DNA of 36,619 bases from a virus: IMG/VR virus record IMGVR_UViG_3300032828_000136, positions 1 to 36,619 of that record. The stretch is one strand, 5' to 3'. Within the stretch, counting starts at the first letter, position 1. Each line of letters begins with the position of its first letter. Both the position numbers and the translations under genes were made by a program. Positions 3,964 to 34,307 of this stretch are shown piece after piece. The notes below the pieces were generated by a model that searched no databases, was not told the origin of the DNA, and saw only the letters and a program-made list of their open reading frames with translations.

Positions 3964-3993
3964 ACCCGCTGATATAGCACAGCGGGCGATGCA

Positions 3994-4009
3994 TTGAACA
4001 GATGTTCAA
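3994..4009. promoter_or_regulatory. 16-bp palindrome TTGAACAGATGTTCAA, copy 1 of 4
   Basis: A perfect inverted repeat with 7-base arms and a 2-base centre. It sits in the 47-base gap upstream of the adaptor gene that starts at 3963. Three relatives occur at 14198, 20151 and 21838. On the minus strand a TATATC lies 17 bases after the inner GTTCAA half, so the site could overlap the -35 region of a promoter. An operator role is inferred from recurrence and position. Confidence 0.6.
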
Positions 4010-4010
4010 A

Positions 4011-5072
4011 CTATTCGGCAGGCGACGCTTCTGCCTGCGGCTCATGACGACGGCGGCGTCTCGGCTCTGCTTCCGGTTCGGGTACCGGCTCGGCAACAGG
4101 CGGCGGAGCGGGCGGCGGTGCCTGCAGCATGGCGGTTAGGCGAGCGATCTCTGCCCGAAGTCTTTCGTTTTCGTCCTGCAGCAGCATCAGTTCGGTGGAG
4201 ACGCCCGCCCAGATCGCTTCGAAATAATCCAGGTCTTCAAGCGCGCCCTGCAGATAGGTCTTCGAATTGCTAAGCTGGCCGATCTGCTGATCCATCCCGG
4301 CAACGCGGTCGCCGACTTCCTTCTTGCGGGCCATGATTTTGCGGCCCATCGGCGTCGAGTCGGCGTAGGCATAGAGCGACGGCGACTGCATGATGTCGCT
4401 CTCGTACGGTGCCGAGATGCGAACACCACGTTCCTTTGCCCGCTGCCGGAAATAGAAGAACCCGGGCCGCTGCCGGATGTATTCGTCCCGACTGGCCATA
4501 TCGATGCCGTAAAGCGCGATCTCCGACGCACCGGTTTTCATGGCATAGGCCATCATCCATGCGAATGACGACGTGAAGAAGTCAGGTCCGAATTCAGCGA
4601 CCAGCTCCGTCTTCGGAAAGGGGATCGCGTTCGGAACGATGGACTGGATCGGCACCATGCTGCCATCGAGCGCCGGCCAGCGGTCCTGCATGAAGATCGG
4701 ACATTTCTGCTGCTTCAGCCATTCGATGTACGGCCTGCCGTAGCTCTCATGCTCCGGCCACAGAAGGTTGCTGTGCAATTCGAACCAAAGATTGAACCTC
4801 GGCAGAGCGTTCATGTTGCCGGGCGAGCACCCCCAAATTTGCCAGGACGGGTCGTTGTACGGCGCCAGCATCTTCGATGAAGGTGCGGTCCCGATGAGAG
4901 CGACCTTGAGAGGGACCCCCGGCGTCGGTACGACCCAGACAGCGCCAGGCGGGTTGACAGGGATCGGAGGCTGCTCACCTTCCTTGGTTGGCTCATGCGG
5001 TGCGGAAATATGAAGCGGGCCCGCCTGCCCATTTACCTGTCGCTCTGCAAACGTCGGCGTCAATACGGTCAT
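4011..5072 (-). CDS. Rossmann-like DUF115/MptE-like protein with coiled-coil tail
   Basis: A 353-residue protein. A disordered Pro-rich N-terminus (1-50) leads to a globular domain starting with VALIGTAPSS (57-66), PSWQIWGCSPG (75-85) and LWFELH (95-100). Near 185 is ASEIALYGIDMAS. This strand-glycine-loop opening with a GIDM strand later is the pattern of DUF115/MptE-like and sialyltransferase-type folds, including the Maf flagellin glycosyltransferases. Phages carry similar proteins of unknown role. Residues about 265-325 form a coiled coil (DENERLRAEIARLTAM) followed by a Pro/Glu/Arg-rich tail. It lies among tail genes, which suggests a virion-associated or assembly-linked enzyme. Glycosyl transfer is possible, but I see no catalytic residues that would settle it. 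Confidence 0.45.
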   Translation of the reverse strand: MTVLTPTFAERQVNGQAGPLHISAPHEPTKEGEQPPIPVNPPGAVWVVPTPGVPLKVALIGTAPSSKMLAPYNDPSWQIWGCSPGNMNALPRFNLWFELHSNLLWPEHESYGRPYIEWLKQQKCPIFMQDRWPALDGSMVPIQSIVPNAIPFPKTELVAEFGPDFFTSSFAWMMAYAMKTGASEIALYGIDMASRDEYIRQRPGFFYFRQRAKERGVRISAPYESDIMQSPSLYAYADSTPMGRKIMARKKEVGDRVAGMDQQIGQLSNSKTYLQGALEDLDYFEAIWAGVSTELMLLQDENERLRAEIARLTAMLQAPPPAPPPVAEPVPEPEAEPRRRRRHEPQAEASPAE

Positions 5073-12475: not shown

Positions 12476-13390
12476 TTACGAGGTCGGGTACGTGCCGTAG
12501 ATATGCCGCCAGTCGTAGTAGCTGGGCACGTAGCGCTGATAACCCTTGACGAGCAGATTGTCGGTCGAGAACTCGACGCTCATGTCGGTCTCAAACTGCT
12601 TGCGCATGAAGAAGACCAGCCCGGGCACGTTGGTGAGCACGAACCACGCGAACTGCGACGTCAGATAGTCATAGACCATGTAGCCTTCCTTGAAGGACTG
12701 CTCCATTTCCTTGACCGCGTTGATATCGTTGTTGCCAGTGCCGACGCGCAGCTCCGAACGGAAGAGACGCGCCGCGATCGGCTCCAAGTTCGGAGGAACG
12801 ATCAGCTTCTGGCCGCGCGCATGCTGCTTCAGACCCGCGTTGGTTTTCCAAGTCGAGCGGATGGTGATGCCCGCGTTCAGCAGCGACGTCTCGTTCAGAG
12901 AGACGTCGGGAGACGGCTGGTTGGCAATAGAGGTGCCGTCGATCGGGTGCGCGGGGTTGATCAGCGAGACACCGTCACCCTGAACCTGCGGGTTAAAGGT
13001 TGTGCCGTTGTTCAAAATATTGGCGGCGTAAACCTCTTCGGTCTCCTTGAAGGCCTCCATCAGGCCGTCGTTGTTCGGACCCCACTCTGCCTTGTACAAA
13101 TTATCGTCGATCGCGGGCCTGGTGATCGCGTACATGAGCCCGATCTCGAAGTGCTGGGCATTGTAGATGTAGCGTTGGCCGGCATTGTTATCAGTGGCGG
13201 TCGGCGAACCTTCGTTCTTGACCTGCGCGTAACCGAGGTAACGCATCGCGGCCCGGCGTTCCAACGCCATGTTCGATCCGACTTCCTTGAAAATCTGCGG
13301 CCATTGCCGCTCGATCATCGGATAGCGACCGTCGATGCCCCACAGTCCCGGGAGCAGAAGGTCTTTAATTTGTGAGAGTGCGACGGGCAT
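12476..13390 (-). CDS. Major capsid protein (Mu gpT-like)
   Basis: A 304-residue protein with landmarks of the gpT-like HK97-fold capsid family: MPVALSQIKDLLLPGLWGI, MIERQWPQIFKEVGSNMALE, YAITRPAIDDNLYKAEWGPN, AANILNNGTTFNPQVQGDG, and a C-terminal YQRYVPSYYDWRHIYG. It forms the shell of the head. The ATG at 13390 is preceded by a near-perfect TAAGGAGG at 6-base spacing, the strongest ribosome-binding site I saw in this arm, as expected for the most abundant virion protein. It sits downstream of scaffold and decoration genes. Confidence 0.85.
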   Translation of the reverse strand: MPVALSQIKDLLLPGLWGIDGRYPMIERQWPQIFKEVGSNMALERRAAMRYLGYAQVKNEGSPTATDNNAGQRYIYNAQHFEIGLMYAITRPAIDDNLYKAEWGPNNDGLMEAFKETEEVYAANILNNGTTFNPQVQGDGVSLINPAHPIDGTSIANQPSPDVSLNETSLLNAGITIRSTWKTNAGLKQHARGQKLIVPPNLEPIAARLFRSELRVGTGNNDINAVKEMEQSFKEGYMVYDYLTSQFAWFVLTNVPGLVFFMRKQFETDMSVEFSTDNLLVKGYQRYVPSYYDWRHIYGTYPTS

Positions 13391-20178: not shown

Positions 20179-21819
20179 CTAGACCGGATACAATGCGCCG
20201 GCCCTGGGCTTGTACCGGGTCTCATCCTGCACCTCGAAGGCGCGCTCTTCCTTGCGGACCGCCCAGCCGGCGCGGCGCAGCCAGAGCAGGGCCATGCTGC
20301 AGGTGTCGGCCAGGTCGTCGTGGATGGCGCGCGGGACGATGGCGCACTGCTTGACCATGGCGTCCGCCCATTCCTTATCAGGCGCGTAGACCAGGCCTTC
20401 GGAGAACAGGTGCACCACGGTCTGCAGGCGCGCGACCTTGTCGGCCGATTTGATGAAGCCGGTGCGCGGGTTGACCAGTTCAATGCCGAAATCGAAATAG
20501 CCGAAGAGGCGGCCCAATTCCTGGCTGACGCTGTGCCCGGCCGCCTTGTCTTCGATGATCAGGCGATCGACCTTGAAGGCCTTGCAATCCGCGCCGACAC
20601 GGGTCGCAAGTTCATGGATACGAAGTCGCTCAGTCCAACAGAACATGAGAAAAATCTTGGGATTCCCGGCCTTGTCACGGAAAATGCCCCAGATCGAGAG
20701 CGCGGAAGGATCGTTCTCTTCTTTTTCGGTGTAGGCCGTGTCCAAAGCGCCCAAAATGAACTCGAAGCCCGGGTACTCGTTCTCTTTGGCACCATGCTGT
20801 TCCGCCGTTTCTTTATCCCATTCCTGCCACCATTCTTCGCGGATGATGCCGCCGCCACGCGGTGCAGGGGTCTGTTGAAATTGTCCAGCATAGGCGTAGG
20901 GCCCCAGTTCCAATTCCAGTTTGTGGACTTCACTTGCCGGAAACCGGTCCGGCCAGAGCAGTTCGCCTTCCTCGCTGCGCCGGTCGACCCAGAAAATATC
21001 GTCTTCATCGACGTTTTCGACGTCATCGCCGATGAACGTCTTGATCTTGTTCCCGACCCATGCGTTGACGTGCTGGCACGGCACATAGGACATCGGAACG
21101 CAGAAATGGACGTATTCCGACGCCATGTTCTGCAGGATGTGCCCGGATAGGTCGCCCTCGTGCACGCGCTGCATCACGACGATCATCGCGCCGGTCTTCC
21201 GGTTGTTGATACGCGACGGCATCGATTCCGACCACCAGCGGACCGTGCCTTCTCTGACGTCCTGAGATTCCGCTTCCTTCACCAGATGCGGGTCGTCGGC
21301 GACCAGGATGTCGGCGCCGAAGCCGGTGGCCTTGGCGTCGACCGACGAACACATCCGGTAGCCGCCCTTGTCGTTTTCGAAGTGACCCTGCGTGTCGCGG
21401 ATCAACTTGAAGCGCCCACCCCAGTGCTGCTGATACCAACGCGACTCGATCAGCCGCCGGCATTTAAGTGAGTGTTCCAGCGAAAGTTTTTCGGCGTACG
21501 ACGCGTAAAAAAATGAAACCTGCGGGCCAGAGAGCGGCCCCTTCTGGCGTTGCGCCCAAACCCAGGTAGGATAGCAGATCGAAACAATGAAGGTCTTGCC
21601 GGTGCGAGGCGGTTCGTTGAGCAGCAAGCGCGAGATATGGCCGCGCGTCACCGCTTCCATGTGATTGCAGATGTCTTCCAGGTGCCAGTTGTCGACGAAG
21701 TCTGACGGGTCGACTTCCGGCCACGCCTGCCGACAGAACTCATAGAAGCTGTTCTCGCATATCTCGGCGTTGCGCGCGGTATACGCTGCGTTAATGAGAT
21801 CAAGCGCCGGGGTGGCCAT
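20179..21819 (-). CDS. terL: Terminase large subunit (TerL)
   Basis: 546 residues. The ATPase part has Walker A in NEPPRTGKT (68-76) and a Walker B strand with ILVADDP (171-177), preceded by GAD. A RINNRKTGAMIVVMQRVHEG segment follows, as in other large terminases. The nuclease part starts with ALDTAYTEKEENDPSA (358-373) and supplies candidate metal ligands D360, E423 (in IIEDKA) and D501/D502 (IHDDLAD). The enzyme cuts and pumps DNA through the portal into the head. It starts at 21819 with no clear ribosome-binding site, 75 bases from the divergent ribbon-helix-helix gene. No small terminase gene is visible on either side of it. Confidence 0.9.
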   Translation of the reverse strand: MATPALDLINAAYTARNAEICENSFYEFCRQAWPEVDPSDFVDNWHLEDICNHMEAVTRGHISRLLLNEPPRTGKTFIVSICYPTWVWAQRQKGPLSGPQVSFFYASYAEKLSLEHSLKCRRLIESRWYQQHWGGRFKLIRDTQGHFENDKGGYRMCSSVDAKATGFGADILVADDPHLVKEAESQDVREGTVRWWSESMPSRINNRKTGAMIVVMQRVHEGDLSGHILQNMASEYVHFCVPMSYVPCQHVNAWVGNKIKTFIGDDVENVDEDDIFWVDRRSEEGELLWPDRFPASEVHKLELELGPYAYAGQFQQTPAPRGGGIIREEWWQEWDKETAEQHGAKENEYPGFEFILGALDTAYTEKEENDPSALSIWGIFRDKAGNPKIFLMFCWTERLRIHELATRVGADCKAFKVDRLIIEDKAAGHSVSQELGRLFGYFDFGIELVNPRTGFIKSADKVARLQTVVHLFSEGLVYAPDKEWADAMVKQCAIVPRAIHDDLADTCSMALLWLRRAGWAVRKEERAFEVQDETRYKPRAGALYPV

Positions 21820-22262: not shown

Positions 22263-22462
22263 CCGACAAACTGACCAAGGAAGAAGTCCATTACGACGGC
22301 GGCGCGGTGCACCACCACTGCGGGCCGGTCTTCCACGACGACAAGTATTATTGCCAGCATTTCGAGCCGAGCACGCACCGCGTCGGCAGGTGCGACATCG
22401 TCCAGGGAGCGATCGCGCCGGAGATGGGATGCGACAGATATAAGAGAGTACGCAAGCCGTGA
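22259..22462 (+). CDS. Cys/His-rich small phage protein (67 aa, HiPIP-like pattern)
   Basis: The GTG start at 22259 overlaps the previous stop (GTGA). The protein has AVHHHCGPVFHDDKYYCQHF, then GRCDIVQGAIAPEMGCDRYK. The pattern YCxxF...GxCxIVxGxIxPxxGCxxY resembles small phage proteins related to high-potential iron-sulfur proteins. Four Cys plus several His could bind an iron-sulfur cluster or zinc; which one cannot be told from sequence. It overlaps the acetyltransferase gene. Confidence 0.55.
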   Translation: MTDKLTKEEVHYDGGAVHHHCGPVFHDDKYYCQHFEPSTHRVGRCDIVQGAIAPEMGCDRYKRVRKP

Positions 22463-22974
22463 CGCCAACCCTGTCGACCGAACGATTGACGCTGCGCCAA
22501 CTCACCAAGCCGACGCCGGACCATGTCCGTTGGCTCAACGATCCCGAAGTGACGCGCTATTCCGAGCAGCGCCACATCGAGCATTCGATGTACCGGCAAA
22601 TTCAGTACATCAATTCGTTCGAGGGCAATTCCCACATCTGGGGCATCTACCGCGTCGACAACAAGGCGAACATCGGGATCATCACCGCGACCCATGATCC
22701 GCCGAACAATCTTGCGGACGTCGGCATTCTGATCGGCGACGTCGACGTCTGGGGGCAGGGCTACGGCGCCGAGGCGTGGCGGGCCGCCTGCGACTGGCTT
22801 CTCTCGCCGGATGGCGGCGGCATGCGCAAGCTTGAAGCCGGGTGCATGCGCGCCAATGAGGCGATGATGAAGATCATCATCAAGAGCAGGTTCAAGCACG
22901 AAGGCGATCGCGCCAATCACTTCCTCCTCGGCGGCAATCCGGTGTCGGCCGCTCTGTTCGGGCGCTTCCCATGA
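22459..22974 (+). CDS. GNAT N-acetyltransferase (RimJ/RimL type)
   Basis: 171 residues, GTG start overlapping the preceding stop. It opens with TLSTERLTLRQLTKPTPDHV and HVRWLNDPEVTRYSEQRHI, the usual N-terminal pattern of RimJ/RimL acetyltransferases. Residues about 85-110 carry ADVGILIGDVDVWGQGYGAE, which holds the acetyl-CoA-binding QGYGAEA loop (R/Q-x-x-G-x-G/A). A GCMRANEAMMKIIIKSRFKH helix follows, as in the family. The substrate is probably an amino-sugar of the operon's product, judged from the neighbours. ATGA overlap with the next gene. Confidence 0.75.
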   Translation: MTPTLSTERLTLRQLTKPTPDHVRWLNDPEVTRYSEQRHIEHSMYRQIQYINSFEGNSHIWGIYRVDNKANIGIITATHDPPNNLADVGILIGDVDVWGQGYGAEAWRAACDWLLSPDGGGMRKLEAGCMRANEAMMKIIIKSRFKHEGDRANHFLLGGNPVSAALFGRFP

Positions 22975-23150
22975 CGAACGATGAAATCGTCGAACGGATT
23001 TTCGAGATCAGGGTGGCCAATAACTTCCCGTGGAAAAAGCTGATGAAATTGGCCCTGAAGCACGCGCCGGAAGAAGCGAAGGAGGCACTGCGGGAGATCA
23101 CGGACAACGACATCATGGTTTCGGCATTGGTACGGGATTTGACGCGATGA
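22971..23150 (+). CDS. Small helical companion protein of the sugar operon (59 aa)
   Basis: A 59-residue protein, MTNDEIVERIFEIRVANN followed by WKKLMKLALKHAPEEAKEAL and NDIMVSALVRDLTR. It is all-helical and charged. It is coupled by ATGA at both ends, between the acetyltransferase and the methyltransferase. Its IFxIR-x-NN-W-x-LMxxA pattern resembles small proteins I have seen in bacterial sugar-acid gene clusters, but I could not verify that. No function can be assigned; a chaperone or subunit role is a guess. Confidence 0.6.
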   Translation: MTNDEIVERIFEIRVANNFPWKKLMKLALKHAPEEAKEALREITDNDIMVSALVRDLTR

Positions 23151-23749
23151 GACAGGTTGAAGCGTTCATAAAAGGCGAAGGCGACGCGTGGTTCGAACGC
23201 AATCGCGAGAAGCTTCCTCCGGAACACGATCCGGTGGCGGTCGCGATCACGTATCTCGGCATTACCCCGAAGGCCGTCCTGGAAATCGGATGCTGCGATG
23301 GTTGGCGTCTTGCAAAGCTGCGCGAGAAGTACGGCTGCGCGGTTGCCGGCGTCGAGCCAAGCCGGAAGGCAGCAGCGGCAGCAGCGGACCGCAAGGTGCC
23401 GGTGTGGCAGGCGGCCGCCAGCGCGATGCCGGTGCGATCCGGTGCCTACGACGTCGTGATCTACGGCTTCTGTCTCTATCTCACCGATCCGGCTGATTGG
23501 TTTCGCATCGCGATGGAAGGCGATCGCGTGCTGAAGGACGGCGGGCATCTGATCATCCACGACTTCGCGAACGAAGGCTTCGATTACGCCCGCCCATACG
23601 AGCACCGCGATGGCGTCCTGTCCTATCACGTCGACTTCAGCCGCCTTTGGCGCGCGCATCCTTGGTATCGCGGCGTGAAGACGTGGCAATTCGCCGACGC
23701 GGCCGTATCGGTTCTGCAAAAGAATACCGAGATTGAGGTTCGCCAATGA
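23147..23749 (+). CDS. Class I SAM-dependent methyltransferase
   Basis: I choose the ATG at 23147 (ATGA overlap), which gives 200 residues; a longer open frame upstream is antisense and out of frame with the neighbour. The SAM-binding motif I is AVLEIGCCDGWRLAKL (43-58). The acidic end of the second strand is GVEPS (68-72), and a YDVVIYGFCLYLTD segment holds post-I motifs. LKDGGHLIIHDF corresponds to the later beta strands. The fold is of the Methyltransf_11 type. In this operon it probably O- or N-methylates the sugar or its N-acyl group, but the substrate is unknown. Confidence 0.75.
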   Translation: MRQVEAFIKGEGDAWFERNREKLPPEHDPVAVAITYLGITPKAVLEIGCCDGWRLAKLREKYGCAVAGVEPSRKAAAAAADRKVPVWQAAASAMPVRSGAYDVVIYGFCLYLTDPADWFRIAMEGDRVLKDGGHLIIHDFANEGFDYARPYEHRDGVLSYHVDFSRLWRAHPWYRGVKTWQFADAAVSVLQKNTEIEVRQ

Positions 23750-24615
23750 AGATCGGGATCGTCGGCTGCGGCAGCATCGGAAGCCGCCATCGAAGCAACG
23801 CGGTGAGATTGGGACATGAGACCAAGGTCTATGACCTGGCGATGAAGTGCGATTTCAAGTTTGAACGCGAATTGTACGACTGGTGCGATGCGGCGGTGAT
23901 CGCCACGCCGTCGCAGTTTCACGAAGGCCCGCTGCGCGCCTGTATCGAGCGCGGGAAGCATGCCCTGGTGGAGAAGCCGATCTCGGTTTCTGTGGGCGGC
24001 CTGCCGGCGCTGCTCGACCAGGCCAAGGCCAAGGGCCTCACCGTCATGATGGGCAACAACCTGCGCTTCCATCCATGCGTCACGCAGACCAAGCGATGGT
24101 TGATCGAAGGCCGGTTCGGAGAGCCGCGATGGGCCCACTTCCTGTGCGCGACAGAGCCAACCGCGACCGCGTTCCGCGACGGTGTGATCCTCAATACCGG
24201 TGCGCACGAGGTCGACCTGGCGCTGCATTTCTTCGGACCGGCGCGGATTTTGGCGTCCAGCGTGGAGCGCGACGGCGTCGACACCATTGTCGACTTCGTG
24301 CTGCGTCACGACAGCAGCGGCGTCCGCTCGTCCTTCCATCTCAACATCGTGTCGCCGAAGCGGGTGAGACAGTTCTGGATCGGCATGGAAGAGAAGACGC
24401 TTGGTGCCGATCTCGATCTGCGGCGGTTTGCCGGTGACGGCGACTACAACGGCTATCACTACGGCGGCAGCTATGCCGACGATTATGGGACCGAACTGCA
24501 GACGTTCATAGCACGAGCGCAGGGCGAAGACGGCACGCAGGGTCTGCCCGGCGCCACTGGCCGCGAAGGCCTCGAAACCCTGGCCATCCTCGAAGCGATA
24601 CGGGACATCAAATGA
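23746..24615 (+). CDS. Gfo/Idh/MocA-family NAD(P)-dependent oxidoreductase
   Basis: 289 residues. The dinucleotide-binding loop is GIVGCGSIGSRH (4-15), and EKPIS (76-80) is the family's lysine-containing motif. The active-site region reads NTGAHEVDLALHFFGP, with candidate residues H154 and D157. The length is a little under the usual 330-400 residues because the C-terminal part is short (QGLPGATGREGLETLAILEA at the end). Such enzymes oxidise or reduce a ring or side-chain carbon of activated sugars. Here it presumably acts on the sugar-acid precursor. The ATGA junctions on both sides show operon membership. Confidence 0.8.
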   Translation: MKIGIVGCGSIGSRHRSNAVRLGHETKVYDLAMKCDFKFERELYDWCDAAVIATPSQFHEGPLRACIERGKHALVEKPISVSVGGLPALLDQAKAKGLTVMMGNNLRFHPCVTQTKRWLIEGRFGEPRWAHFLCATEPTATAFRDGVILNTGAHEVDLALHFFGPARILASSVERDGVDTIVDFVLRHDSSGVRSSFHLNIVSPKRVRQFWIGMEEKTLGADLDLRRFAGDGDYNGYHYGGSYADDYGTELQTFIARAQGEDGTQGLPGATGREGLETLAILEAIRDIK

Positions 24616-26630
24616 AAACCGTCGCAGTGATCCAGGCCCGGATGGGCAGCACCCGCCTTCCAGGCAAGGTGATGATGGACCTTGGTGGGCGTCCAGTTCT
24701 GAACTGGTCTTGGCGTGCTGCCTATCAGGCAGCCGGCGTCGATGATGTTTGGATTGCTACATCGACAGAGCCGGCGGATGACGTGATCGATGCATGGTGC
24801 AAAACACATAGCATTCCCGTCTTTCGCGGGTCGGAGATTGACGTGTTGTCCCGTTTCGTCGGCTGCGCCCAGGTAAGCGACGCCGATCTCATTATCCGCA
24901 TAACCGGCGATTGCCCGTTTATAGACCCGGACATCATTGGCGGGATCGTACGCCTGCAGAAGCGGACCGGTGCGGACTTTGTCACCAATGTAAGCCCGCG
25001 CACCTATCCGGATGGTCTTGATATCCAGCTCATGACCCGGAAGGCGCTATTTGCGGCGCATAAATACGCCACCAGGCCGGTCGACCGCGATGGTGTCTGC
25101 ACCTGGATCGAGCGCAACCGGTCACGCTTCCCGGCCGAAACCCTGATCTGCCCGATCCCGGGATTGGAGACGGAACGGTGGGTGCTCGATACGGAGAACG
25201 ATCTCAAATTCTGCCGCGCGATCGCCGAGGAATGGCCATTCGAGAATCGAACACCATCGATGCTCGACATCCTGGACATCCTCGATCGGCAGCCAGAACT
25301 GCGCGACATCAACAAGCATCACCCCATGAACGAGCGCTATTTCGAAGCATTGGCGGAGGAGCCGATCTATGAAAGGACGTACGAAAGGTCGCAAGCAGCG
25401 CGGAAGCGCGCGGAAGCGGTCATCCCGCTCGGCTGCCAAACGTTCAGCAAGTCACATCTCCAATACCCTCAACCGTCTCCTTTGTTCCTTAGCCATGGAG
25501 AGGGAGCCCTATGCTGGGACATCGACGGAAACGAGTACGTTGATCTGGTCTCTGCGCTGCTGCCAAACGTACTTGGATATCGCGATCCAGATGTTGATGT
25601 GGCAATCCGCCGGCAGATTAGCGCCGGCATCTCCTTTAGCCTTGCTACCGAACTTGAAGCCGAACTCGCCGAAACGCTCTGCCGGCTCGTCCCGTGTGCG
25701 GAAGCGGTCCGGTTCGGGAAAACCGGCACGGATGCGACGACGGCGGCTATTCGGGCCGCGCGGGCCTTTACGGGACGTGACCGGGTCCTGATCTGCGGCG
25801 GGTATCACGGCTGGGCGGATTGGAGCGTCGAGCGGAATCTCGGCGTCCCGGAGGATGTGCGCGCTCTGACGACGCGCATCCCTTTTGGAGACATCATGGA
25901 GGCAACCCGCGCTCTCTTGGGATTACCGAAGTCATCCTATGCGGCGGTAATCGTCGAACCAGAAAGTAATCCGGACTATTTGGCGGGCCTGCGCGAAGTC
26001 TGCGACAAGACCGGCACCGTCCTGATCTTCGACGAGGTCATCACGGGCTTCCGGTTCGATCTCGGCGGCGCGCAGAAGCTTTGGGGCGTGACCCCGGATC
26101 TTGCGACCTTCGGCAAGGCTATGGCCAATGGCATGCCGCTTTCGGCTGTTGTCGGCAAGAAGAGCATCATGAAGCGCTTTGCGCCGCCGGATAACGTTTT
26201 CTTCTCGGGGACCTTCTTCGGCGAGACGCTCTCTCTCGCGGCGGCCATCGCGACGATTAAGAAGCTCGAAGCGCCGAGCTTCTTCCGCAATCTTCGCCTG
26301 ACCGGAGATCAACTTTGGCTTGGTGCCCATCGCCTGCTTGAGAAATACGGCCTTGAAGAAGCGATTGAGATCAAGGGCTATCCGACCTTCAAGCGGATCA
26401 AGTTCGTCACCGATGATATCGCCGCGCTGTTCCGGAAGGAGATGGTCGCCAGCGGCACCCTGATCATCGCGAGCCATAACATCTCGGCGGCGCATGGCCC
26501 GAACGAGATCGAGCGCGTCCTGAAGAGCTATGACCATGCGCTCGGCGTCATCATCGAGGCAATCGAGAAAGGCGACGTCAAGGAGCGCCTGGCCGGTGCC
26601 AGCGTCGGCCCGGGTGTGAGGGCATCGTGA
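24612..26630 (+). CDS. Bifunctional CMP-sugar-acid synthetase fused to class III aminotransferase
   Basis: 672 residues in two parts. Residues 1-235 are a SpsF/NeuA-type cytidylyltransferase: VIQARMGSTRLPGKV (6-20) is the nucleotide-binding signature, with ADLIIRITGDCPFIDPD (91-107) and TYPDGLDIQLMT (131-142). Residues 255-672 are a glutamate-1-semialdehyde-aminotransferase-like PLP enzyme. It has GEGALCWDIDGNEYVDLV, GYHGW (397-401), FDEVITGFR (473-481) and the probable PLP lysine K502 in ATFGKAMANG. The first part would couple a sugar acid to CMP; the second would transfer an amino group to the substrate. Such fusions exist in spore-coat (sps) and other glycan loci. The exact substrate is unknown. 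Confidence 0.8.
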   Translation: MKTVAVIQARMGSTRLPGKVMMDLGGRPVLNWSWRAAYQAAGVDDVWIATSTEPADDVIDAWCKTHSIPVFRGSEIDVLSRFVGCAQVSDADLIIRITGDCPFIDPDIIGGIVRLQKRTGADFVTNVSPRTYPDGLDIQLMTRKALFAAHKYATRPVDRDGVCTWIERNRSRFPAETLICPIPGLETERWVLDTENDLKFCRAIAEEWPFENRTPSMLDILDILDRQPELRDINKHHPMNERYFEALAEEPIYERTYERSQAARKRAEAVIPLGCQTFSKSHLQYPQPSPLFLSHGEGALCWDIDGNEYVDLVSALLPNVLGYRDPDVDVAIRRQISAGISFSLATELEAELAETLCRLVPCAEAVRFGKTGTDATTAAIRAARAFTGRDRVLICGGYHGWADWSVERNLGVPEDVRALTTRIPFGDIMEATRALLGLPKSSYAAVIVEPESNPDYLAGLREVCDKTGTVLIFDEVITGFRFDLGGAQKLWGVTPDLATFGKAMANGMPLSAVVGKKSIMKRFAPPDNVFFSGTFFGETLSLAAAIATIKKLEAPSFFRNLRLTGDQLWLGAHRLLEKYGLEEAIEIKGYPTFKRIKFVTDDIAALFRKEMVASGTLIIASHNISAAHGPNEIERVLKSYDHALGVIIEAIEKGDVKERLAGASVGPGVRAS

Positions 26631-26929
26631 CCCCAGATGAAAAACGAGAAAGGGATATAGCCCGACGGAAGAAATGGTTTGCGGCGCATCCTGGTTACGC
26701 GACGCGCAAAACACGAGAATTTCGCGAGAAAAATCCATCTTACTTTAAGGAGTGGGCGGCCAGCCACCGCGAGAACCTTCGGGCTGCAGATGACCGTTAC
26801 CGCAAAAAGGACCCCCATGCATACCGTACCAAGAAACGGGTGCAAAAGAAGAAGTGGCGCGAGAACAATCCTGAGAAGGACGCTCTCGCTTGCGCTAAAT
26901 GGCGCGAAAAGAACGGAATGTTTCTATGA
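26627..26929 (+). CDS. Small Lys/Arg-rich protein resembling the N-terminal repeats of phage HNH nucleases
   Basis: 100 residues, GTG start (GTGA) and ATGA end, so it is translated in the operon. It is built of short repeats of the form KKWFAAHPGY, TREFREKNPSYFKEW, RKKDPHAYRTKK and KKWRENNPEKD. This W-R-x-x-N-P-E-K repeat is typical of the region preceding the catalytic domain in phage HNH homing endonucleases, but no HNH histidines follow here. It is either a remnant left by a homing endonuclease or an independent small nucleic-acid-binding protein. It is the only non-sugar-type gene inside the enzyme run. Confidence 0.55.
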   Translation: MTPDEKRERDIARRKKWFAAHPGYATRKTREFREKNPSYFKEWAASHRENLRAADDRYRKKDPHAYRTKKRVQKKKWRENNPEKDALACAKWREKNGMFL

Positions 26930-27783
26930 AGTCGGTCTTGATAACAGGCGGTTCAGGAGCATTTGGCAGCGCCTTCGTCCGCGCGCTGTTATCGATGTAC
27001 GATTGTCCATCGCGGATTGCGATCTATTCGCGCGGCGAGCACCGGCAGGCCGAACTTACGCATGAACTCGCGCCGTTAGATACCCACAATACAGTCCGGT
27101 ATATGATCGGAGACGTTCGCGACCGCGTTCGCCTGCGGCGCGCGATGCAAGGTATCGATGTCGTGATCCATGCCGCCGCGCTGAAACGCATCGAAGTTGG
27201 TTTCTATAACCCGATTGAAATCGCCAAAACGAACATCATCGGGTCAATGAATGTCGTAGAGGCGGCTCAAGACGCTAAGGTCGGCCGTGTTATCGCACTT
27301 TCGACGGACAAAGCCTACCAGCCGGTGAGCCCGTACGGGACGTCAAAGGCCTTCGCGGAACAGCTCTTCCTGGCCGCGAACAATATGAGCGGTGCGCACG
27401 GACCGCGTTTCGCCGTCTGCCGGTATGGGAACGTCTGGAACAGCACCGGCAGCGTCGTGCCGACGTGGAAGAAGATGCTGCAGACCCAGAATTGGGTCCC
27501 GGTGACCGATCCGGAGTGCACCCGCTTCTTCATGACCATGGATGAGGCCGTGCTGCTGGTCATGAAGACGGCGGAGACCATGAAGGGCGGCGAGATCGTG
27601 ATCCCGACGCTGCCGGCGTACCGGCTTGGCGACCTGGCGGAGGCCATGGGCGCGGAGGCGACGGTCACAGGCCTGCCGAATTACGAAAAGAGACACGAGA
27701 GCATGGGCCCGGGCAATAGCAGCGACAAGGCGCGGCGGATGTCGGTCGATGAATTGAGGGAGGCACTGCGTTGCGCATCATGA
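26926..27783 (+). CDS. PseB-like UDP-sugar 4,6-dehydratase (SDR)
   Basis: 285 residues from the ATG at 26926, which overlaps the previous stop (ATGA). It has a glycine-rich NAD-binding motif TGGSGAFGSAF (7-17) and a GDVRDRVRLRRAMQGIDVVI strand region. The catalytic group is STDKAYQPVSPYGTSK (126-141), with D128, K129, Y137 and K141. The arrangement matches the inverting and retaining UDP-GlcNAc 4,6-dehydratases (PseB/LegB/CapD group). The product would be a 4-keto-6-deoxy sugar nucleotide, the first step of a pseudaminic- or legionaminic-type pathway. It is slightly shorter than typical PseB (about 330 residues). Confidence 0.8.
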   Translation: MKSVLITGGSGAFGSAFVRALLSMYDCPSRIAIYSRGEHRQAELTHELAPLDTHNTVRYMIGDVRDRVRLRRAMQGIDVVIHAAALKRIEVGFYNPIEIAKTNIIGSMNVVEAAQDAKVGRVIALSTDKAYQPVSPYGTSKAFAEQLFLAANNMSGAHGPRFAVCRYGNVWNSTGSVVPTWKKMLQTQNWVPVTDPECTRFFMTMDEAVLLVMKTAETMKGGEIVIPTLPAYRLGDLAEAMGAEATVTGLPNYEKRHESMGPGNSSDKARRMSVDELREALRCAS

Positions 27784-28664
27784 TGTCTGCCGCCGGATCG
27801 CCCGTGGCGCCTGGGATCATCCGGCACCTGCAGAAGCTGGGACATTACGTCATCGGGCACGATTGCCAGCCACTCGGGCCCGGCGCGAGCATGTGCAATA
27901 GATTCGTCGTGTCCCAAAAAGCAGCGATGCACCACGTCACCTACGTCAGCATGATCTTGGAGTGCGGGCCGAACCTTTATCTCCCATTTTTGGATGAAGA
28001 ACTTGAGGATGTATGCCTGCTCAACGAGAACATCGTCATGCGATCTCCGATCGACACCGTAAAAATCTTTACGAGCAAGGGGATACAGCAGGAAAAGCTT
28101 GAACACGCCGGTCTGCCGATAGCACCGCTAGACTGGCGCGGTGATTGGATTGCAAAGCCGGAGCGCGGCAGAGGAAGCAGAGGAATATTGCGCGGGTCAG
28201 GAGCGTTGCATTCTGGTGAGGTTCTTGCGCGAGCGTTAATGAATTATGGGCGCATTGTTCAGAAGTTCATAGATGGCGATGAGTATACGGTCGACGTCAT
28301 CACAGGGCTCGGTGGGGATTTCCTGTTCGGCGTTCCACGCCGCCGCATTCAGGCAAACAGCGTCTCGACCATCGGCCAGATCGTCATGGATCAAGAGATC
28401 ATCGGTCTAGCCAAAGCAGTGGTGAGCAAGTTCCAGTTTTACGGTCCCATCAACATCCAGATGATCCGCGAGAAGGACACCGGCAAACTTTACATCATCG
28501 AGGTCAACGCCCGCCTATCCGGGTCCTGCATGTTCACCGTCATGGCCGGCTGGGACATCTTGGCCGACACGATCCGATTACACCAGGGATTGCCCTTCGA
28601 GCCGCCCAAGCATGTCAAGAACGGCATTGTTATCCGCCGTCATTACGTTGAGAAGTTCGCATGA
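27771..28664 (+). CDS. ATP-grasp ligase
   Basis: The start is probably TTG at 27771, with GGGAGG 7 bases upstream; an ATG at 27780 would remove residues needed for the first strand (RIMMSAAG). This gives 297 residues. Residues 127-140 hold WIAKPERGRGSRGI, the ATP-binding lysine and glycine-rich flap. VQKFIDGDEYTVDV (163-176) is the hinge and strand with E171. INIQMIREKDTGKLYIIEVN followed by ARLSG (228-251) provides the metal ligands E244, N246 and R248. ATP-grasp enzymes form amide or thioester bonds with acids; here one might attach an amino acid or acyl group to the sugar's amine. It overlaps its upstream gene by 13 bases. Confidence 0.75.
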   Translation: MRIMMSAAGSPVAPGIIRHLQKLGHYVIGHDCQPLGPGASMCNRFVVSQKAAMHHVTYVSMILECGPNLYLPFLDEELEDVCLLNENIVMRSPIDTVKIFTSKGIQQEKLEHAGLPIAPLDWRGDWIAKPERGRGSRGILRGSGALHSGEVLARALMNYGRIVQKFIDGDEYTVDVITGLGGDFLFGVPRRRIQANSVSTIGQIVMDQEIIGLAKAVVSKFQFYGPINIQMIREKDTGKLYIIEVNARLSGSCMFTVMAGWDILADTIRLHQGLPFEPPKHVKNGIVIRRHYVEKFA

Positions 28665-29311
28665 CCGAACGCGTTCTTGTTGTTGCCGCCCATCCCGACG
28701 ATGAAGTCCTCGGCTGCGGCGGAACGATTGCCCGGCACGCGGCGGAAGGTGACGACGTGCACATCATCTTCGCCGCCGATGGCGAGACAGCGCGCGTGCA
28801 GGCCGCGCGGCATAACCGGAACATGGACGCGCAAGAGGCCATGAAGGTCCTCGGCGCCAAATCCGTGTTCTTTTGCGATTACCGGGATCAGATGCTGGAC
28901 ACCTTGCCGCTGATCGAGATCACCAGGAAGATCGAGGAAGAAGGTCGGCGGCTGCGGCCGACGATCGTCTATACGCATCATGCTGGCGACCTGAATCAGG
29001 ACCACCGGATCGTGCATCAGGCGACGATGACGGCATTCAGGCCGCTGCCGGAGAGCCCAGTGCATGCGATCTATACATTCGAGGTGCTTTCATCGACCGA
29101 GTGGGGCGCCGGGTTCGTGCCGAACCATTTCGTCGACATCACCGACTACTACCGCGTCAAACTAGAAGCTCTGAACTGCTACCATAATGAGATGCGACCA
29201 TACCCGCACGCGCGGAGCCTGACATCGGTCAATTCGCTCACATCCATGCGCGGCGCGTCTATCGGTCGGGAGCGCGCCGAAGCCTTCATGACCATGAGGA
29301 CGATCCGGTGA
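28661..29311 (+). CDS. PIG-L/LmbE-family deacetylase
   Basis: 216 residues. The zinc-binding motif AHPDDEVLGCGG (10-21) includes H11 and D14, and the second half is DLNQDHRIVHQA (110-121) with H115 and H119. These are the Zn ligands of GlcNAc-PI and mycothiol-type deacetylases. In the operon it would remove an acyl group from an amino-sugar nucleotide to expose a free amine, which the GNATs or the ATP-grasp enzyme could then re-modify. ATGA overlaps at its start and GTGA at its end. Confidence 0.8.
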   Translation: MTERVLVVAAHPDDEVLGCGGTIARHAAEGDDVHIIFAADGETARVQAARHNRNMDAQEAMKVLGAKSVFFCDYRDQMLDTLPLIEITRKIEEEGRRLRPTIVYTHHAGDLNQDHRIVHQATMTAFRPLPESPVHAIYTFEVLSSTEWGAGFVPNHFVDITDYYRVKLEALNCYHNEMRPYPHARSLTSVNSLTSMRGASIGRERAEAFMTMRTIR

Positions 29312-29760
29312 TCGGCCTGCGCCACGCAACCATTGCCGACTCCGATCGGCTGCTGCGCTGGCGCAACGATGTCGGCACCATGAGGGCGTTCTGGAACACG
29401 CAGCCGATAACGAAGGAAGAGCACGATCGGTGGATGCAGTTCCATGTCCTGAACGGCTATCCAACTCATCTCGTCCTGATCGCCGAGGGCGACAGCGGAC
29501 CGATCGGTGTGGTGCGTTTCGACGCCAAGCGAAAGGACGTCATGACCTACGACGTCAGCATCACCATCGCGCCGGAGTATCGGGACAAAGGCTACGGCCA
29601 CAGCGTGCTGCAGGCGGCCTGCGACACCATGCCGGAGGTGACGATCCGCGCCGACGTGAAGGATTGGAACATCGCGTCGCGGCGGATTTTCCTGCGCTGC
29701 GGGTTCGAAGAGACGGGAAATGAGGACGGCGTTGTTTCGTACGAGAGAGGACCACGATGA
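29308..29760 (+). CDS. GNAT N-acetyltransferase (PseH-like position)
   Basis: 150 residues, GTG start (GTGA overlap). It opens MIGLRHATIADSDRLLRWRND and has a PITKEEHDRWMQFHV segment as in PseH/LegH/RimI-type enzymes. The acetyl-CoA loop is ITIAPEYRDKGYGHSVLQA (89-107), which contains the R-D-K-G-Y-G signature. It ends in NIASRRIFLRCGFEETG, the usual family C-terminus. Being next to the DegT aminotransferase, it probably acetylates the new amine, as PseH does in pseudaminic acid synthesis. The substrate is not provable from sequence. Confidence 0.75.
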   Translation: MIGLRHATIADSDRLLRWRNDVGTMRAFWNTQPITKEEHDRWMQFHVLNGYPTHLVLIAEGDSGPIGVVRFDAKRKDVMTYDVSITIAPEYRDKGYGHSVLQAACDTMPEVTIRADVKDWNIASRRIFLRCGFEETGNEDGVVSYERGPR

Positions 29761-30866
29761 TCGGCCCAATAGCACCATACAACAGCATCACAAAGGTGGA
29801 GATCGCAGCCGCAATCGCCGCGATGGATGACGGCCCGCTCTCTGGCTATCTCGCCGGCCAGGAGCGCGGCGGCAAGATGGTCCGGGCCTTGGAGGACGCA
29901 TGGCAGGAGACGTTCAACGTCCGGCACGCGATCGCATGCAACAGCAATACCAGCGGCCTGATGGCGGCGGCGTTCGCCGTGGGCCTGGGTCCTGGCGATG
30001 ACTTCGCATGTCCTGCCATGACCATGACGGCGACGGCGGCAGCGCCGATGTTTACGGGGGCAACGCCGATCTTTTGCGATGTCGAGGATGAAACCTTTGG
30101 TCTTTCGGTAACCGGGCTCCCCTTTGAGGAGATCGATAATTGGCCGGTCTTCGCAACCAATCTCTTCGGCCATCCCTGCGATCTTCGCCGCATTCGCCAA
30201 TGGTGCGATGCCAACGGGACCTATCTCATCGAAGACAACGCTCAAGCGCCGTTTGCGACGGAGCGAGAGCGCTACACGGGCTGCATTGGACATATCGGCG
30301 TCTTCTCGCTCAACGTGCACAAGCATTTCCACTGCGGCGAGGGCGGCGTGATCGTCACCAACGATGATCATCTTGCATGGCGGATGCGCGGCTTTATCAA
30401 TCACGGCGAGCATATCATGGCGCCGATCGGGCTCAACCTGCGCATGCCGGAGGTTTCGGCCGCGATCGCGGGTGCCCAGCTTCGGCGGGCGTACGGCCTG
30501 GTCGCACAGCGGGTGGTGCAGGCCCAGGAGATCATCGCCGCGATCGGCGATGTCCCAGGCATCCGGCCGCCGGTAGTGCGGGACGATTGTGTCCACGTCT
30601 ATTATACGATTCCGTTCCTGATCGACGGCGATCGGGCCGCGTTTTGCCATGATCTGCGCAATGCCGGCGTCCCGGTCGTGGAGGGCTACGCCGATCCGCT
30701 GTACCGGATGACGGCGTTCAAGCAGTTCGGGATGCGCTGCCCAAACGCGGAAGATTTGCATGATCGCCGCCTGTTCTATATTGAGAACTGCGCGTATAAT
30801 TTTACACACGCGCAAATCTCACTCATCGGCGACGCGTTCAAGCGGGCGGCAGAGAAGGCGCGATGA
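29757..30866 (+). CDS. DegT/DnrJ/EryC1-family aminotransferase (PseC-like)
   Basis: 369 residues. The PLP lysine is K189 in SLNVHKHFHCGEGG (184-197). Asp160 in LIEDNAQA (157-164) would bind the PLP pyridine nitrogen. The early segment HAIACNSNTSGLMAAAFAVG (57-76) and PVVEGYADPLYRMTAF near 325 are family landmarks. The enzyme would put an amine on a 4-keto-sugar nucleotide, the second step after a PseB-like dehydratase. ATGA overlaps the upstream GNAT. Confidence 0.8.
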   Translation: MIGPIAPYNSITKVEIAAAIAAMDDGPLSGYLAGQERGGKMVRALEDAWQETFNVRHAIACNSNTSGLMAAAFAVGLGPGDDFACPAMTMTATAAAPMFTGATPIFCDVEDETFGLSVTGLPFEEIDNWPVFATNLFGHPCDLRRIRQWCDANGTYLIEDNAQAPFATERERYTGCIGHIGVFSLNVHKHFHCGEGGVIVTNDDHLAWRMRGFINHGEHIMAPIGLNLRMPEVSAAIAGAQLRRAYGLVAQRVVQAQEIIAAIGDVPGIRPPVVRDDCVHVYYTIPFLIDGDRAAFCHDLRNAGVPVVEGYADPLYRMTAFKQFGMRCPNAEDLHDRRLFYIENCAYNFTHAQISLIGDAFKRAAEKAR

Positions 30867-30916
30867 ACGTCATTGTCCAATAATGGATGGAGATTTTATA
30901 TGAGGCTGGTGATCGC
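30863..30916 (+). other. Gap with two six-codon reading frames in front of the NeuB-like gene
   Basis: The region begins with ATG at 30863, overlapping the DegT stop (ATGA), and encodes MNVIVQ before a TAA. A second frame at 30900 encodes MRLVIA and ends in a TGA that overlaps the NeuB-like ATG at 30917. Both look like the first residues of Rossmann-fold proteins and both sit in ATGA-style junctions. They may be scars of deleted operon genes. Chance is also possible. Confidence 0.3.
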
Positions 30917-31567
30917 ATGACAGAGATCGTAGCCGAGCTAAGTGGCAACCATGGCGGCAGCCTGCAGAACGCACACAGGCTGATCGATGCTGCAAAGGCA
31001 TCCGGCGCCGACGCGGTCAAATTCCAATGCTTCTCGCCGGAGCGGCAGGCCATAAAGCGCAATCGGCCGGACGTTTTGGCAATTGTCGACGCCCATCACG
31101 GCGGCGAGCCGCTGCTCGATCTCTATTATCGGGTGTGGACGCCTTGGACGTGGTTTCCGGCGCTCATCGCGCATTGCAAGGACATCGGGATTCCGTGGTT
31201 CTCGTCCGTGTTCGCGCCAGAAGACGTCGAGTACATGGAGAGTCTATCCTGCCCGCGATACAAAATCTCGGCGTGGGAGATTGGCGCACTGGATTGGCAA
31301 CTGATCAAGGCGGTAAAGGAAACCGGCAAGCCGGTCGTGATGAGCGTACGGCAAGCACCTGGCGTTATCATTCTCGACGCGACAGATTACAACGGCGAGT
31401 TTGTAACCTTGGGCCTTTCCGCGCATGGCGCGATCCTGCCGCACGTCGACGCGCCGATGGTTGAGTACCATCTGAAACTCGATGGCGTCGAAACTCCCGA
31501 TAGCAAGTTCTCGCTCACGCCCGCCGAATTTGCGAGGATGGCCACACTCATGGGCCGAATTGTCTAA
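30917..31567 (+). CDS. Miniature NeuB/PseI-like sugar-acid synthase (216 aa)
   Basis: A TIM-barrel of the N-acetylneuraminate/pseudaminate synthase family that condenses PEP with an amino-sugar. The start is the ATG at 30917; an in-frame ATG at 30887 gives 10 more residues. Landmarks are VAELSGNHGG (5-14), GADAVKFQCF (30-39), PWFSSVFAPEDVEYMESL (93-110) and YKISAWEIG (115-123). The segment normally carrying the C-S-x-Y-P strand is missing: after KPVVMS (138-143) the sequence goes to LGLSAHG (165-171) and VEYHLKLDG (182-190). These still retain histidines (H170, H185) where NeuB binds its metal. The C-terminal SAF domain is absent; normal length is about 340. Confidence 0.7.
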   Translation: MTEIVAELSGNHGGSLQNAHRLIDAAKASGADAVKFQCFSPERQAIKRNRPDVLAIVDAHHGGEPLLDLYYRVWTPWTWFPALIAHCKDIGIPWFSSVFAPEDVEYMESLSCPRYKISAWEIGALDWQLIKAVKETGKPVVMSVRQAPGVIILDATDYNGEFVTLGLSAHGAILPHVDAPMVEYHLKLDGVETPDSKFSLTPAEFARMATLMGRIV

Positions 31568-31671: not shown

Positions 31672-32520
31672 ATGAAGCGCTTTCTCACCGCAGCCATTCT
31701 GGCACTTGCCACCATCCCAGCGGCCAAGGCCGCAGATTTTCCGATCAAGGCGGCACCTGCCGCCGTCGCCCGATCTGTCTACGATTGGACAGGCCTCTAT
31801 CTTGGTATCAACGCCGGCTACGGCAACAATAGCAACTGCTGGGACATGAACGGCCTGCTGGTGCTTGGCTTCAATCCGGCCGTAGCCGAAGGCTGCAACG
31901 GCGCCAGCGGCGCGGTTGTCGGCGGCCAGGTCGGCTATCGCCACCAGCTATCCGGAACGAGCTGGGTGTTCGGCATCGAGGCCATGGGTGACTGGGCCGA
32001 TCTCACCGGCAGCAACCAGAGCAGCGCGCCTGGTGGCGTCGCCAACGCCCTGAAGCTTACAATCCCGGCCACCGTGTCGATCGGCCTGACCAACAGCACG
32101 AAGACCAACGCGATCGGCCTGTTCACCGGCCAAGTCGGCTATGCCTTCTTCGGCAACGTCCTGTGGTTTGTGGAAGGTGGCGCGGCGGTGACGAATAATA
32201 AGTACGACGGCGTCCTCACGGCATCGACGCCCGGGTTCTCCCTCGGTGCGGCGGATCACGCCAACGAGGTGAAGTTCGGCGGAGCGATCGGAACCGGCGT
32301 CGACGTGCAGTTCGCGCCGGGCTGGTCGGCCGGTGTGAAGTACGACCATCTGTTCATGGGCAGCCAGAACGTCGGGCTTGGGTTGACCAGCGCGGGCGTG
32401 GCACCCGGTGCGCTACCGGCTGCACCGCTGCTTGCGCCCGGCATGCCAACCAGGAACGAGAGCATCAGCTCTGACATTGATCTGGTGACGGTTCGCCTGA
32501 ACTACAGCTTCCGTCCGTAA
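31672..32520 (+). CDS. Outer-membrane beta-barrel protein, Omp25/Omp31-like
   Basis: I take the ATG at 31672, preceded by AGGAG, giving 282 residues. Residues 1-20 are a signal peptide (MKRFLTAAILALATIPAAKA) with a likely cut before ADF. The mature protein begins like Rhizobiales outer-membrane proteins, with YDWTGLYLGINAGYG (about 35-49). It goes on in alternating strands (VGGQVGYRHQLSGTSWVFG, NVLWFVEGGAAVTNNKYDG, PGWSAGVKYDHLFMG) and ends in VTVRLNYSFRP, an aromatic-ended final strand. It would insert in the host outer membrane as an 8-stranded barrel of the OmpA-like class. In a phage genome this is a host-derived extra gene. Confidence 0.8.
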   Translation: MKRFLTAAILALATIPAAKAADFPIKAAPAAVARSVYDWTGLYLGINAGYGNNSNCWDMNGLLVLGFNPAVAEGCNGASGAVVGGQVGYRHQLSGTSWVFGIEAMGDWADLTGSNQSSAPGGVANALKLTIPATVSIGLTNSTKTNAIGLFTGQVGYAFFGNVLWFVEGGAAVTNNKYDGVLTASTPGFSLGAADHANEVKFGGAIGTGVDVQFAPGWSAGVKYDHLFMGSQNVGLGLTSAGVAPGALPAAPLLAPGMPTRNESISSDIDLVTVRLNYSFRP

Positions 32521-33272: not shown

Positions 33273-33457
33273 GTCGCGCCTTCGGAAGAGGCCAGGATCG
33301 CGGCAAGATCGCGCTCCAATCGCACAGTATCGATTTGCGGAATCTCTTCCGTCACCGGCTTCCCGTACGCGTCAAACCCCGAAATACGAAGCTTCTCCGG
33401 TAGATCGTATTTGCCGGAAAGGACAAGTGCCGCGTAAATGGCATTTCTAGTTTTCAT
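33269..33457 (-). CDS. Small protein, unknown function (62 aa)
   Basis: I use the ATG at 33457, which overlaps the recombinase stop (ATGA), giving 62 residues: [20 protein letters not shown], then [20 protein letters not shown] and a helical end. A longer upstream frame is only the antisense of the recombinase C-terminus. No family is recognised. ATGA overlap at its 3' end too. Confidence 0.5.
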
Positions 33458-34140
33458 GCCGCCGTCTCCATCCGCTTCACCCGCTCCATTACATTGGACA
33501 CGCCCTCTGGCGACCATTGCTTGCCGGTCGCGGACAGGATGCGCATCCGGTTCAACTCCGCCGCGATGGCACGAAGCGTCGTATGCCCGCGCTTCACGAT
33601 CTGCTCAATCTCCGGCATGGTGGCCATGGCGAACTCATCGGCGGTCTTGCGGCGGGATTCGGCGGCCCTCGCCGCGATCCGCGACATGTCCGGGTTGCCC
33701 AGCTTGGTGCCACGGGCCTTCGCCGCCGCGAGACAGGTCTTCGTCCGTTCGGAGATCAGCGCGGCTTCCTTCTCCGCCACCGCCGCATAGATGTGGAGCA
33801 TGAACGGCTCAACGTCCGGGCCCAGTTCGGTGACGATGAACGGCACCTTGTGCACCATCAGGCCGGAGATGAAATGGACGTCACGTCCGAGCCGGTCAAG
33901 CTTGGAGACCACGATCTTAGCGCCGATTTTCTTGGCAGAATCCATGGCCTGCCGAAGCATCGGCCGACGATCAAGAGCGTCGCTTCCCTTGCCGGTCTCA
34001 ACCTCGATGAACGATTGCACGATCGCGGCGTTATATGCAATTGCGAACCGTTCGATCGCGTCATTCTGCGCCTCCAAGCCGAGTCCGGACCGGCCCTGCT
34101 TCTGCGTGGAGACACGGATATAGGCGATCAAATCGGTCAT
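33454..34140 (-). CDS. Small serine recombinase (resolvase/invertase family)
   Basis: 228 residues from the ATG at 34140, which overlaps the upstream stop. The catalytic serine is in [17 protein letters not shown] (S11). [18 protein letters not shown] (about 77-94) is the resolvase R/D-R-L-G-R-D region. A helical middle follows, and a C-terminal helix-turn-helix ([19 protein letters not shown], about 185-203) reads DNA. The size is that of resolvases and DNA invertases rather than large integrases. It may resolve or invert DNA or act in integration; no obvious crossover site or invertible segment is visible nearby. Confidence 0.85.
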
Positions 34141-34307
34141 CGTCCGTCCTTCAGCCGTTGAACCCATGCCTCAAACGCCTCAAGCACCCTGCCATCAAGA
34201 TAAACGACATGGTCGCCATGCTCTCTCGGCGCGCGCAGGCAAACCTGCCATCCGTCAAACGACGCGTAGAGCCCGTCACCAAGATAAGTTTCGTTGGTCT
34301 CGGTCAT
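34137..34307 (-). CDS. Small phage protein (56 aa)
   Basis: A short reading frame from ATG at 34307 to TGA at 34137. The protein starts [20 protein letters not shown] and has [20 protein letters not shown] followed by AWVQRL. The YLGDGxYASFDG...VYLDxxVxxAxxxWVxRL pattern is common among phage proteins next to recombination genes. It overlaps both neighbours by ATGA. The function is unknown. Confidence 0.6.

Follow-up and report, generated by a model that had tools for sequence, protein, structure and literature searches.

A putative pseudaminic-type nonulosonic acid operon with a miniature synthase, and a candidate transferase gene among virion genes, in a lineage of phages

Virus record IMGVR_UViG_3300032828_000136, which was analyzed over its whole stretch of 36,619 bases (the window), belongs to a podovirus and carries ten enzyme genes on the plus strand at 22459-31567, most of them joined by stop/start overlaps. 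A preliminary description, made from the sequence alone, had read these genes as a phage-borne operon for the biosynthesis of a nonulosonic acid (NulO), and all of the enzymes that it named were found by profile searches, every family scoring above its curated Pfam cut-off. The operon faces virion genes on the minus strand. It starts about 640 bases from the gene for the terminase large subunit (TerL; 20179-21819; phrog_38, E 4e-83), and the same strand encodes the major head protein (MCP; 12476-13390; phrog_371, E 4.8e-7), an SU10-like portal, and an SU10 adaptor. Relatives of the portal are in Pelagibacter phage HTVC023P, Roseobacter phage CRP-901, and Caulobacter phages. These four genes, together with the recurrence of the arrangement in about 30 viral contigs, show that the operon is indeed phage-borne, far beyond chance.

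The first gene of the operon encodes a GNAT acetyltransferase (22459-22974; Acetyltransf_3, 66.6 bits) and lies beside the TerL gene in about 30 phage contigs. It is followed by an S-adenosylmethionine-dependent methyltransferase (23030-23749; Methyltransf_11, 47.9 bits), the true start of which may be at 23147, since the alignments with many relatives begin only at residue 40, and by a Gfo/Idh/MocA sugar oxidoreductase (23746-24615; PF01408, 53.1 bits). The cytidine monophosphate (CMP)-transferase and the second aminotransferase, previously counted as separate proteins, are both present as halves of one 672-amino-acid fusion (24612-26630) of an SpsF-like cytidylyltransferase (CTP_transf_3, 88.6 bits) with a HemL-like class III aminotransferase (Aminotran_3, 159.1 bits), in which the motifs GDCPFID, FDEV, and TFGK are intact. 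Between the fusion gene and the next enzyme gene lies a K/R-rich open reading frame (ORF) of 100 amino acids (26627-26929, plus strand), which has no relatives among the fetched loci and is probably outside the pathway. Downstream are genes for a PseB-like inverting UDP-GlcNAc 4,6-dehydratase (26899-27783; likely start at 26926), an ATP-grasp ligase (27771-28664; ATPgrasp_Ter, 68.3 bits), a PIG-L-type N-deacetylase with an HPDDE motif (28661-29311; PF02585, 105.8 bits), a second, PseH-like GNAT acetyltransferase (29308-29760; Acetyltransf_3, 64.4 bits), a DegT/PseC-like sugar aminotransferase that is near full length at 369 amino acids (29757-30866; PF01041, 187.9 bits), and a miniature PseI/NeuB-like sugar acid synthase (30887-31567; likely start at 30917). 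Directly 3' of the synthase gene, a plus-strand ORF (31672-32520) with a signal-peptide-like start had no Pfam or NCBIfam match; we take it to resemble the alphaproteobacterial Omp25/31 barrels. Its homologs in two relatives, with 60% and 28% identity, lie on the opposite strand. Farther along, a serine recombinase of the DNA invertase/resolvase family (33454-34167, minus strand) hints at integration or inversion.

The operon is a fixed trait of a phage lineage and not a stray cluster. In about 30 IMG/VR contigs, genes for GNAT, methyltransferase, oxidoreductase, fusion protein, PseB, DegT, and NeuB occur in the same order and adjoin the TerL gene on the opposite strand. TerL identities in these contigs lie between about 81% and about 33%, with the low end at 33 to 40%, and the MCP is 67 to 89% identical across the lineage. 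A few members are without one or another of these genes or have PseB and DegT after NeuB. The ATP-grasp, PIG-L, and second GNAT genes are variably present, and some members gain a methyltransferase, an RmlD-like reductase, a formyltransferase, or a Wzy_C-like gene. These variable genes set against a constant set allow a core to be separated from tailoring parts. The ATP-grasp and PIG-L genes, from which, together with an acetyltransferase, the preliminary description drew the speculative idea of an acyl or aminoacyl decoration, are confined to some members, so that they look more like optional tailoring functions than like core ones.

The product of the last operon gene is 226 amino acids long, or 216 from the start at 30917 that is conserved in relatives. 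Its earlier assignment as a NeuB/PseI-like synthase was right as to family (Pfam NeuB, 97.8 bits against a gathering score of 22.1) but had overlooked the miniaturization. The NeuB profile is covered at positions 1-120 and 195-229 of 241; about 75 positions have no counterpart in the protein, nor is there any SAF domain. Compared with full-length homologs, the protein lacks the helices between strands 5 and 6 and strands 6 and 7 and most of that between strands 7 and 8. Eleven phage sequences have the identical reduced form and make up one clade (support, 100/100). The pN/pS values of 0.30 to 0.44, and dN/dS values of about 0.2 to 0.3 in the least saturated pairs, indicate that the gene is under purifying selection. 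The predicted structure (AlphaFold; pLDDT 81, falling to 53-73 near residues 150-190; pTM 0.82) retains eight strands, and its top Foldseek match is Campylobacter jejuni PseI (8h2c; E 2.9e-12; TM-score 0.78 by query).

We mapped active-site positions with the numbering of Neisseria meningitidis NeuB, through PDB alignments up to Ser154 and by motif thereafter; the choice of residues was based on PMC6795526 and on general knowledge of the family. All 15 mapped positions are invariant among the 11 miniature synthases, compared to 70 of 201 columns overall (hypergeometric probability, 5e-8, if the sites are taken as a random draw), and the residue type is kept at 14 of the 15, counting Ser for Thr110 as kept. 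The invariant residues include the metal ligands His215 and His236 as well as the phosphoenolpyruvate (PEP)- or substrate-binding residues Glu25, Lys53, Gln55, Lys129, Glu134, Ser154, Tyr186, Ser213, Glu234, and Asp247.

Several explanations for the reduced form were considered. Eleven independent contigs with the same missing parts, and purifying selection, rule out an assembly error or a recent deletion. The SAF domain (PF08666), which was found in 8 of 8 full-length controls, is absent from all 11 records, also elsewhere in them, so that no supply in trans was found. Each record contains exactly one NeuB gene, and no second copy was found elsewhere in the same phage. In the TerL tree, one phage with a full-length synthase (L018) is nested among those with the miniature form, and its operon is otherwise the same, indicating that both forms hold the same slot. 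The single clade, the purifying selection, and the 15 invariant active-site positions speak against a broken gene. The miniature form was not seen among 55 matches in 289 bacterial genomes of one class, in which all open frames were at least 302 amino acids long. Other phage NeuB proteins of about 220 to 290 amino acids (L181, L182, L185, L189, L170, L173, L187, L212, L216, and L221) apparently lack SAF and keep more of the barrel, and may represent a series of reductions. Among cultured-phage records there was one weak NeuB match only, inside an uncultured jumbo-size record.

At a distance of 18 kb from the operon, in the capsid-tail module, a minus-strand gene (4011-5072) encodes a candidate NulO transferase, which the preliminary description had also overlooked. 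It has no Pfam, PHROG, or NCBIfam family match. However, sialyltransferases of the CstII/CstI type (family GT42) occupy PDB ranks 1 to 4 in a Foldseek search with its AlphaFold model (E 1.5e-5 to 5.9e-4; probability 1.00), CstII 1ro8 matching at 1.5e-5 and CstI 2p56 at 4e-4. Its alignment profile also gave GT42 among few PDB matches, at a subsignificant E of about 0.2, and its viral matches include MptE/DUF115 proteins. Every one of the 18 lineage contigs extending beyond the MCP gene carries it, always between MCP and the adaptor and on the same strand; G012 and G025 lack it, and both contigs stop before or just after MCP. The profile was found in 36 of 50 NulO-phage records. Five relatives without the operon yielded no homolog, either in the stretches that were retrieved or in their full records (tblastn, E <= 1e-3). 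Taken together, the predicted fold and the synteny make it probable that this gene encodes a NulO transferase. Cultured-phage records gave one match to it. In Microcystis phage Mvi-Yong1342-1, in which NeuB was not detected, a homolog annotated as a type 11 methyltransferase (L226:19902-20705; XAN61349.1) lies beside the terminase gene.

The type of pathway was examined with NCBIfam models. The dehydratase matched PseB best (TIGR03589, 302.8 bits; FnlA, 165; LegB, 70.7; PseB equivalog cut-off, 407.75), and its PDB match was Helicobacter pylori PseB/FlaA1 (2gn4; E 2e-68); both its TDKA and its YxxxK motif are intact. The synthase scored highest with PseI (142.9 bits versus 84.1 for NeuB_NnaB; cut-off, 340.25). 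The DegT protein scored nearly the same with PseC (134.6 bits; cut-off, 423.5) as with LegC (134.0 bits), and the second GNAT protein reached 32.1 bits with PseH (TIGR03585; cut-off, 93.1). The cytidylyltransferase domain is SpsF/KdsB-like, with 73.4 bits for KdsB and 26.6 bits for PseF (cut-off, 205.7). The PseB and PseI results, with PseI also the best structural match of the synthase, support a pseudaminic-type rather than a legionaminic- or sialic-type NulO pathway as the predicted function; the preliminary description had left the choice between the first two open. The check that this description had set for its own reading is passed in part: the NeuB-like and CMP-transferase parts both match by profile with mapped residues intact, but the synthase is without three helices and SAF.

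Every step of the pathway has a family match except the hydrolysis that releases uridine diphosphate (UDP). The absence of a PseG-like UDP-sugar hydrolase from the window, remarked upon earlier, extends to 52 (27 + 25) NulO-phage records, while the same search was positive in bacterial genomes; a hydrolyzing 2-epimerase was likewise missing from 36 phage records. The same cytidylyltransferase/aminotransferase fusion occurs in bacterial genomes, often near PseB, DegT, and NeuB homologs, and of 12 fusion-bearing bacterial genomes, 10 have a PseG match, which exceeds the cut-off in 4.

From the computed gene content, lineage conservation, selection on the miniature synthase, fold matches, and synteny and co-occurrence of the transferase gene, we infer the chemistry, step order, product, and acceptor as follows. 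A CMP-activated pseudaminic-type acid would be made during infection. The PseB-like dehydratase would act first, followed by the DegT aminotransferase and by acetylation through a GNAT enzyme. UDP would be released by an enzyme that the phage does not encode, either a host PseG or an unrecognized one, after which the miniature PseI-like synthase would carry out the condensation with PEP and the SpsF-like half of the fusion the activation with CMP. Tailoring of the sugar would fall to the oxidoreductase, the class III aminotransferase, and the methyltransferase, and in some members to the ATP-grasp and PIG-L enzymes. The GT42-like protein would then move the NulO from CMP-NulO onto a cytoplasmic acceptor. 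Because its gene is fixed between capsid and tail-adaptor genes, a virion protein is the most likely acceptor, the MCP being one possibility, and the position of the gene leans towards the virion over the host coat. Caulobacter FlmG, which transfers pseudaminic acid to protein in the cytoplasm, sets a precedent (PMC7591256).

We put the probability of this reading as a whole, a phage-dedicated pseudaminic-type NulO pathway with its own GT42-like transferase that glycosylates a virion protein, at roughly 0.52. Its parts differ in strength. A NulO pathway is likely, the transferase role is probable, and a virion protein as the acceptor stands at even odds. The fullest form of the proposal, in which the minimal synthase without helices 5 to 7 and SAF is active and the enzyme from the virion cluster puts sialic-acid-like sugars on the phage's own particles, is held only tentatively. 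Several points weigh against the reading. None of the operon's enzymes reached an NCBIfam equivalog cut-off, so that the pathway is pseudaminic-like but not fileable as the canonical pseudaminic pathway, and the lack of both PseG and a hydrolyzing epimerase leaves a gap in it. The miniature synthase also has no Arg314, and Ala stands at the Ser132 position. The TM-scores of the transferase model are modest (0.34 by query and 0.50 by target). PF06002 (CST-I) matched nothing in the 26 records searched, even at E <= 10, a weak test since no control genome matched either. Ser/Thr-rich virion proteins were dropped as evidence of O glycosylation, since those of operon-free relatives are also at 20 to 28%. 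The window itself encodes a repetitive 959-amino-acid protein with 35% Ser plus Thr in the tail region (7168-10047, minus strand).

The alternatives overlap one another. The main one is that the same NulO pathway alters the host envelope (O antigen, lipopolysaccharide core, or flagellin) and blocks superinfection or readsorption of progeny, which we regard as a serious but lesser possibility. The known phage precedents involving NulOs act at the host surface, namely, the prophage enzymes EpaA/EpaB (PMC12053666) and the O-acetyltransferases that modify capsule NulOs (PMC6586298), and the structurally known GT42 enzymes are lipooligosaccharide sialyltransferases. In one relative (L004:10717-12024), an O-antigen-ligase/polymerase-like gene (Wzy_C, just below the cut-off) immediately follows the miniature synthase gene, and the outer-membrane-barrel-like ORF adjoins the operon of the window. 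However, the Wzy-like gene is found in that relative only, no GT2 glycosyltransferase was detected in 27 records, and all of the informative contigs place the transferase gene in the midst of late virion genes. The gene content of the lineage is also mostly lytic-looking, though with the recombinase present.

A catalytically dead miniature NeuB, retained as a scaffold, regulator, or substrate binder while the host supplies the NulO, is unlikely. This alternative draws on the missing helices and on two features that count against an active synthase: Ser132 is replaced by Ala in all 11 sequences, and Arg314, which is borne by the SAF domain, is absent; the R314A mutant of N. meningitidis NeuB was reported to be inactive (PMC6795526). 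It sits poorly with the invariance of the metal and PEP/substrate residues, with the slot that the miniature protein takes from the full-length synthase, and with the single NeuB gene per record. Still less likely is a sugar acid or amino sugar other than a NulO, for example with the class III aminotransferase, the oxidoreductase, and the methyltransferase acting on a hexose and the synthase on an unusual aldehyde, since the subcutoff scores, the KdsB-like cytidylyltransferase, the glutamate-1-semialdehyde aminomutase-like half without an assigned role, and the lack of PseG are set against PseB and PseI as clearly the best models and against the company that the fusion keeps in bacteria.

Miniaturization is not confined to this lineage. 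A second phage family, with at least a dozen members, has genes for PseB, a DegT protein of about 200 amino acids, a methyltransferase, WbuX, WbuZ, GNAT, an SpsF-like protein, and NeuB, a set that fits pseudaminic-type chemistry; WbuX and WbuZ form acetamidino groups. The miniature DegT proteins (about 170 to 225 amino acids; L008:9220-9846, L009:796-1470, L010:9420-10001, and about ten other loci) keep the region of the pyridoxal phosphate-binding lysine and the aspartate, while the C-terminal domain is gone. Homologs of the GT42-like gene lie near the synthase gene in many of these phages. Miniature enzymes in both phage families indicate more than one origin or spread of reduced NulO enzymes among phages. 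Among the records searched, Maf-like genes were found only in G006, a member of the second family with a miniature synthase, in which two MptE/Maf-like genes (L129:1625-2623 and 3236-4144), one with a weak PseD match, adjoin the SU10 adaptor gene.

If a near-complete NulO pathway is a fixed property of a phage lineage and more than a passing moron, sialic-acid-like sugars become a part of phage biology that can be tested on virions. If active, the miniature synthase would show how much of the TIM barrel and SAF domain is dispensable and whether Arg314 is as well. The GT42-like gene offers a specific candidate for glycosylation of the virion. The lack of PseG in both phage families points to host dependency or to an unknown hydrolase. 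The literature covered, openly accessible papers other than preprints, contained no account of a miniature NeuB or of a NulO pathway encoded by a phage.

The phage operon shares with the PseB-C-H-G-I-F pathway of C. jejuni and H. pylori and with FlmA-B-H-D-NeuB-C of Caulobacter crescentus the PseB-, PseC-, PseH-, and PseI-like proteins and a cytidylyltransferase, here in one operon. It differs from the canonical pseudaminic pathway in that PseG is missing, the synthase has no SAF domain and three fewer barrel helices, the cytidylyltransferase is fused to a class III aminotransferase, a methyltransferase, an oxidoreductase, an ATP-grasp enzyme, and a PIG-L enzyme are added, and the whole set is encoded by a phage. 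The miniature synthase has the eight barrel strands, the metal ligands, and most of the PEP/substrate residues of N. meningitidis NeuB (1xuu) and C. jejuni PseI (8h2c), but at about 210 amino acids, compared to about 340, it lacks SAF and helices 5 to 7. Similarly, the GT42-like protein shares with CstI and CstII the predicted fold, a Gly-x-x-Pro-Ser motif at the N terminus, and a G-x-D region aligned by profile, whereas the missing PF06002 match, the coiled-coil C terminus, and the location in a phage virion cluster set it apart. It would, like the cytoplasmic flagellin glycosyltransferases Maf/PseD and FlmG, draw on soluble CMP-NulO to modify a protein in the cytoplasm, and MptE/Maf-like genes do occur in the related phage G006; by sequence it is not itself a Maf protein (PF01973). 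The prophage enzymes EpaA/EpaB of Acinetobacter baumannii are likewise phage enzymes that act on pseudaminic acid (PMC12053666). What they convert, however, is capsular pseudaminic acid, which the host is able to produce itself, whereas here most of the synthesis appears to be phage-encoded and lineage-wide.

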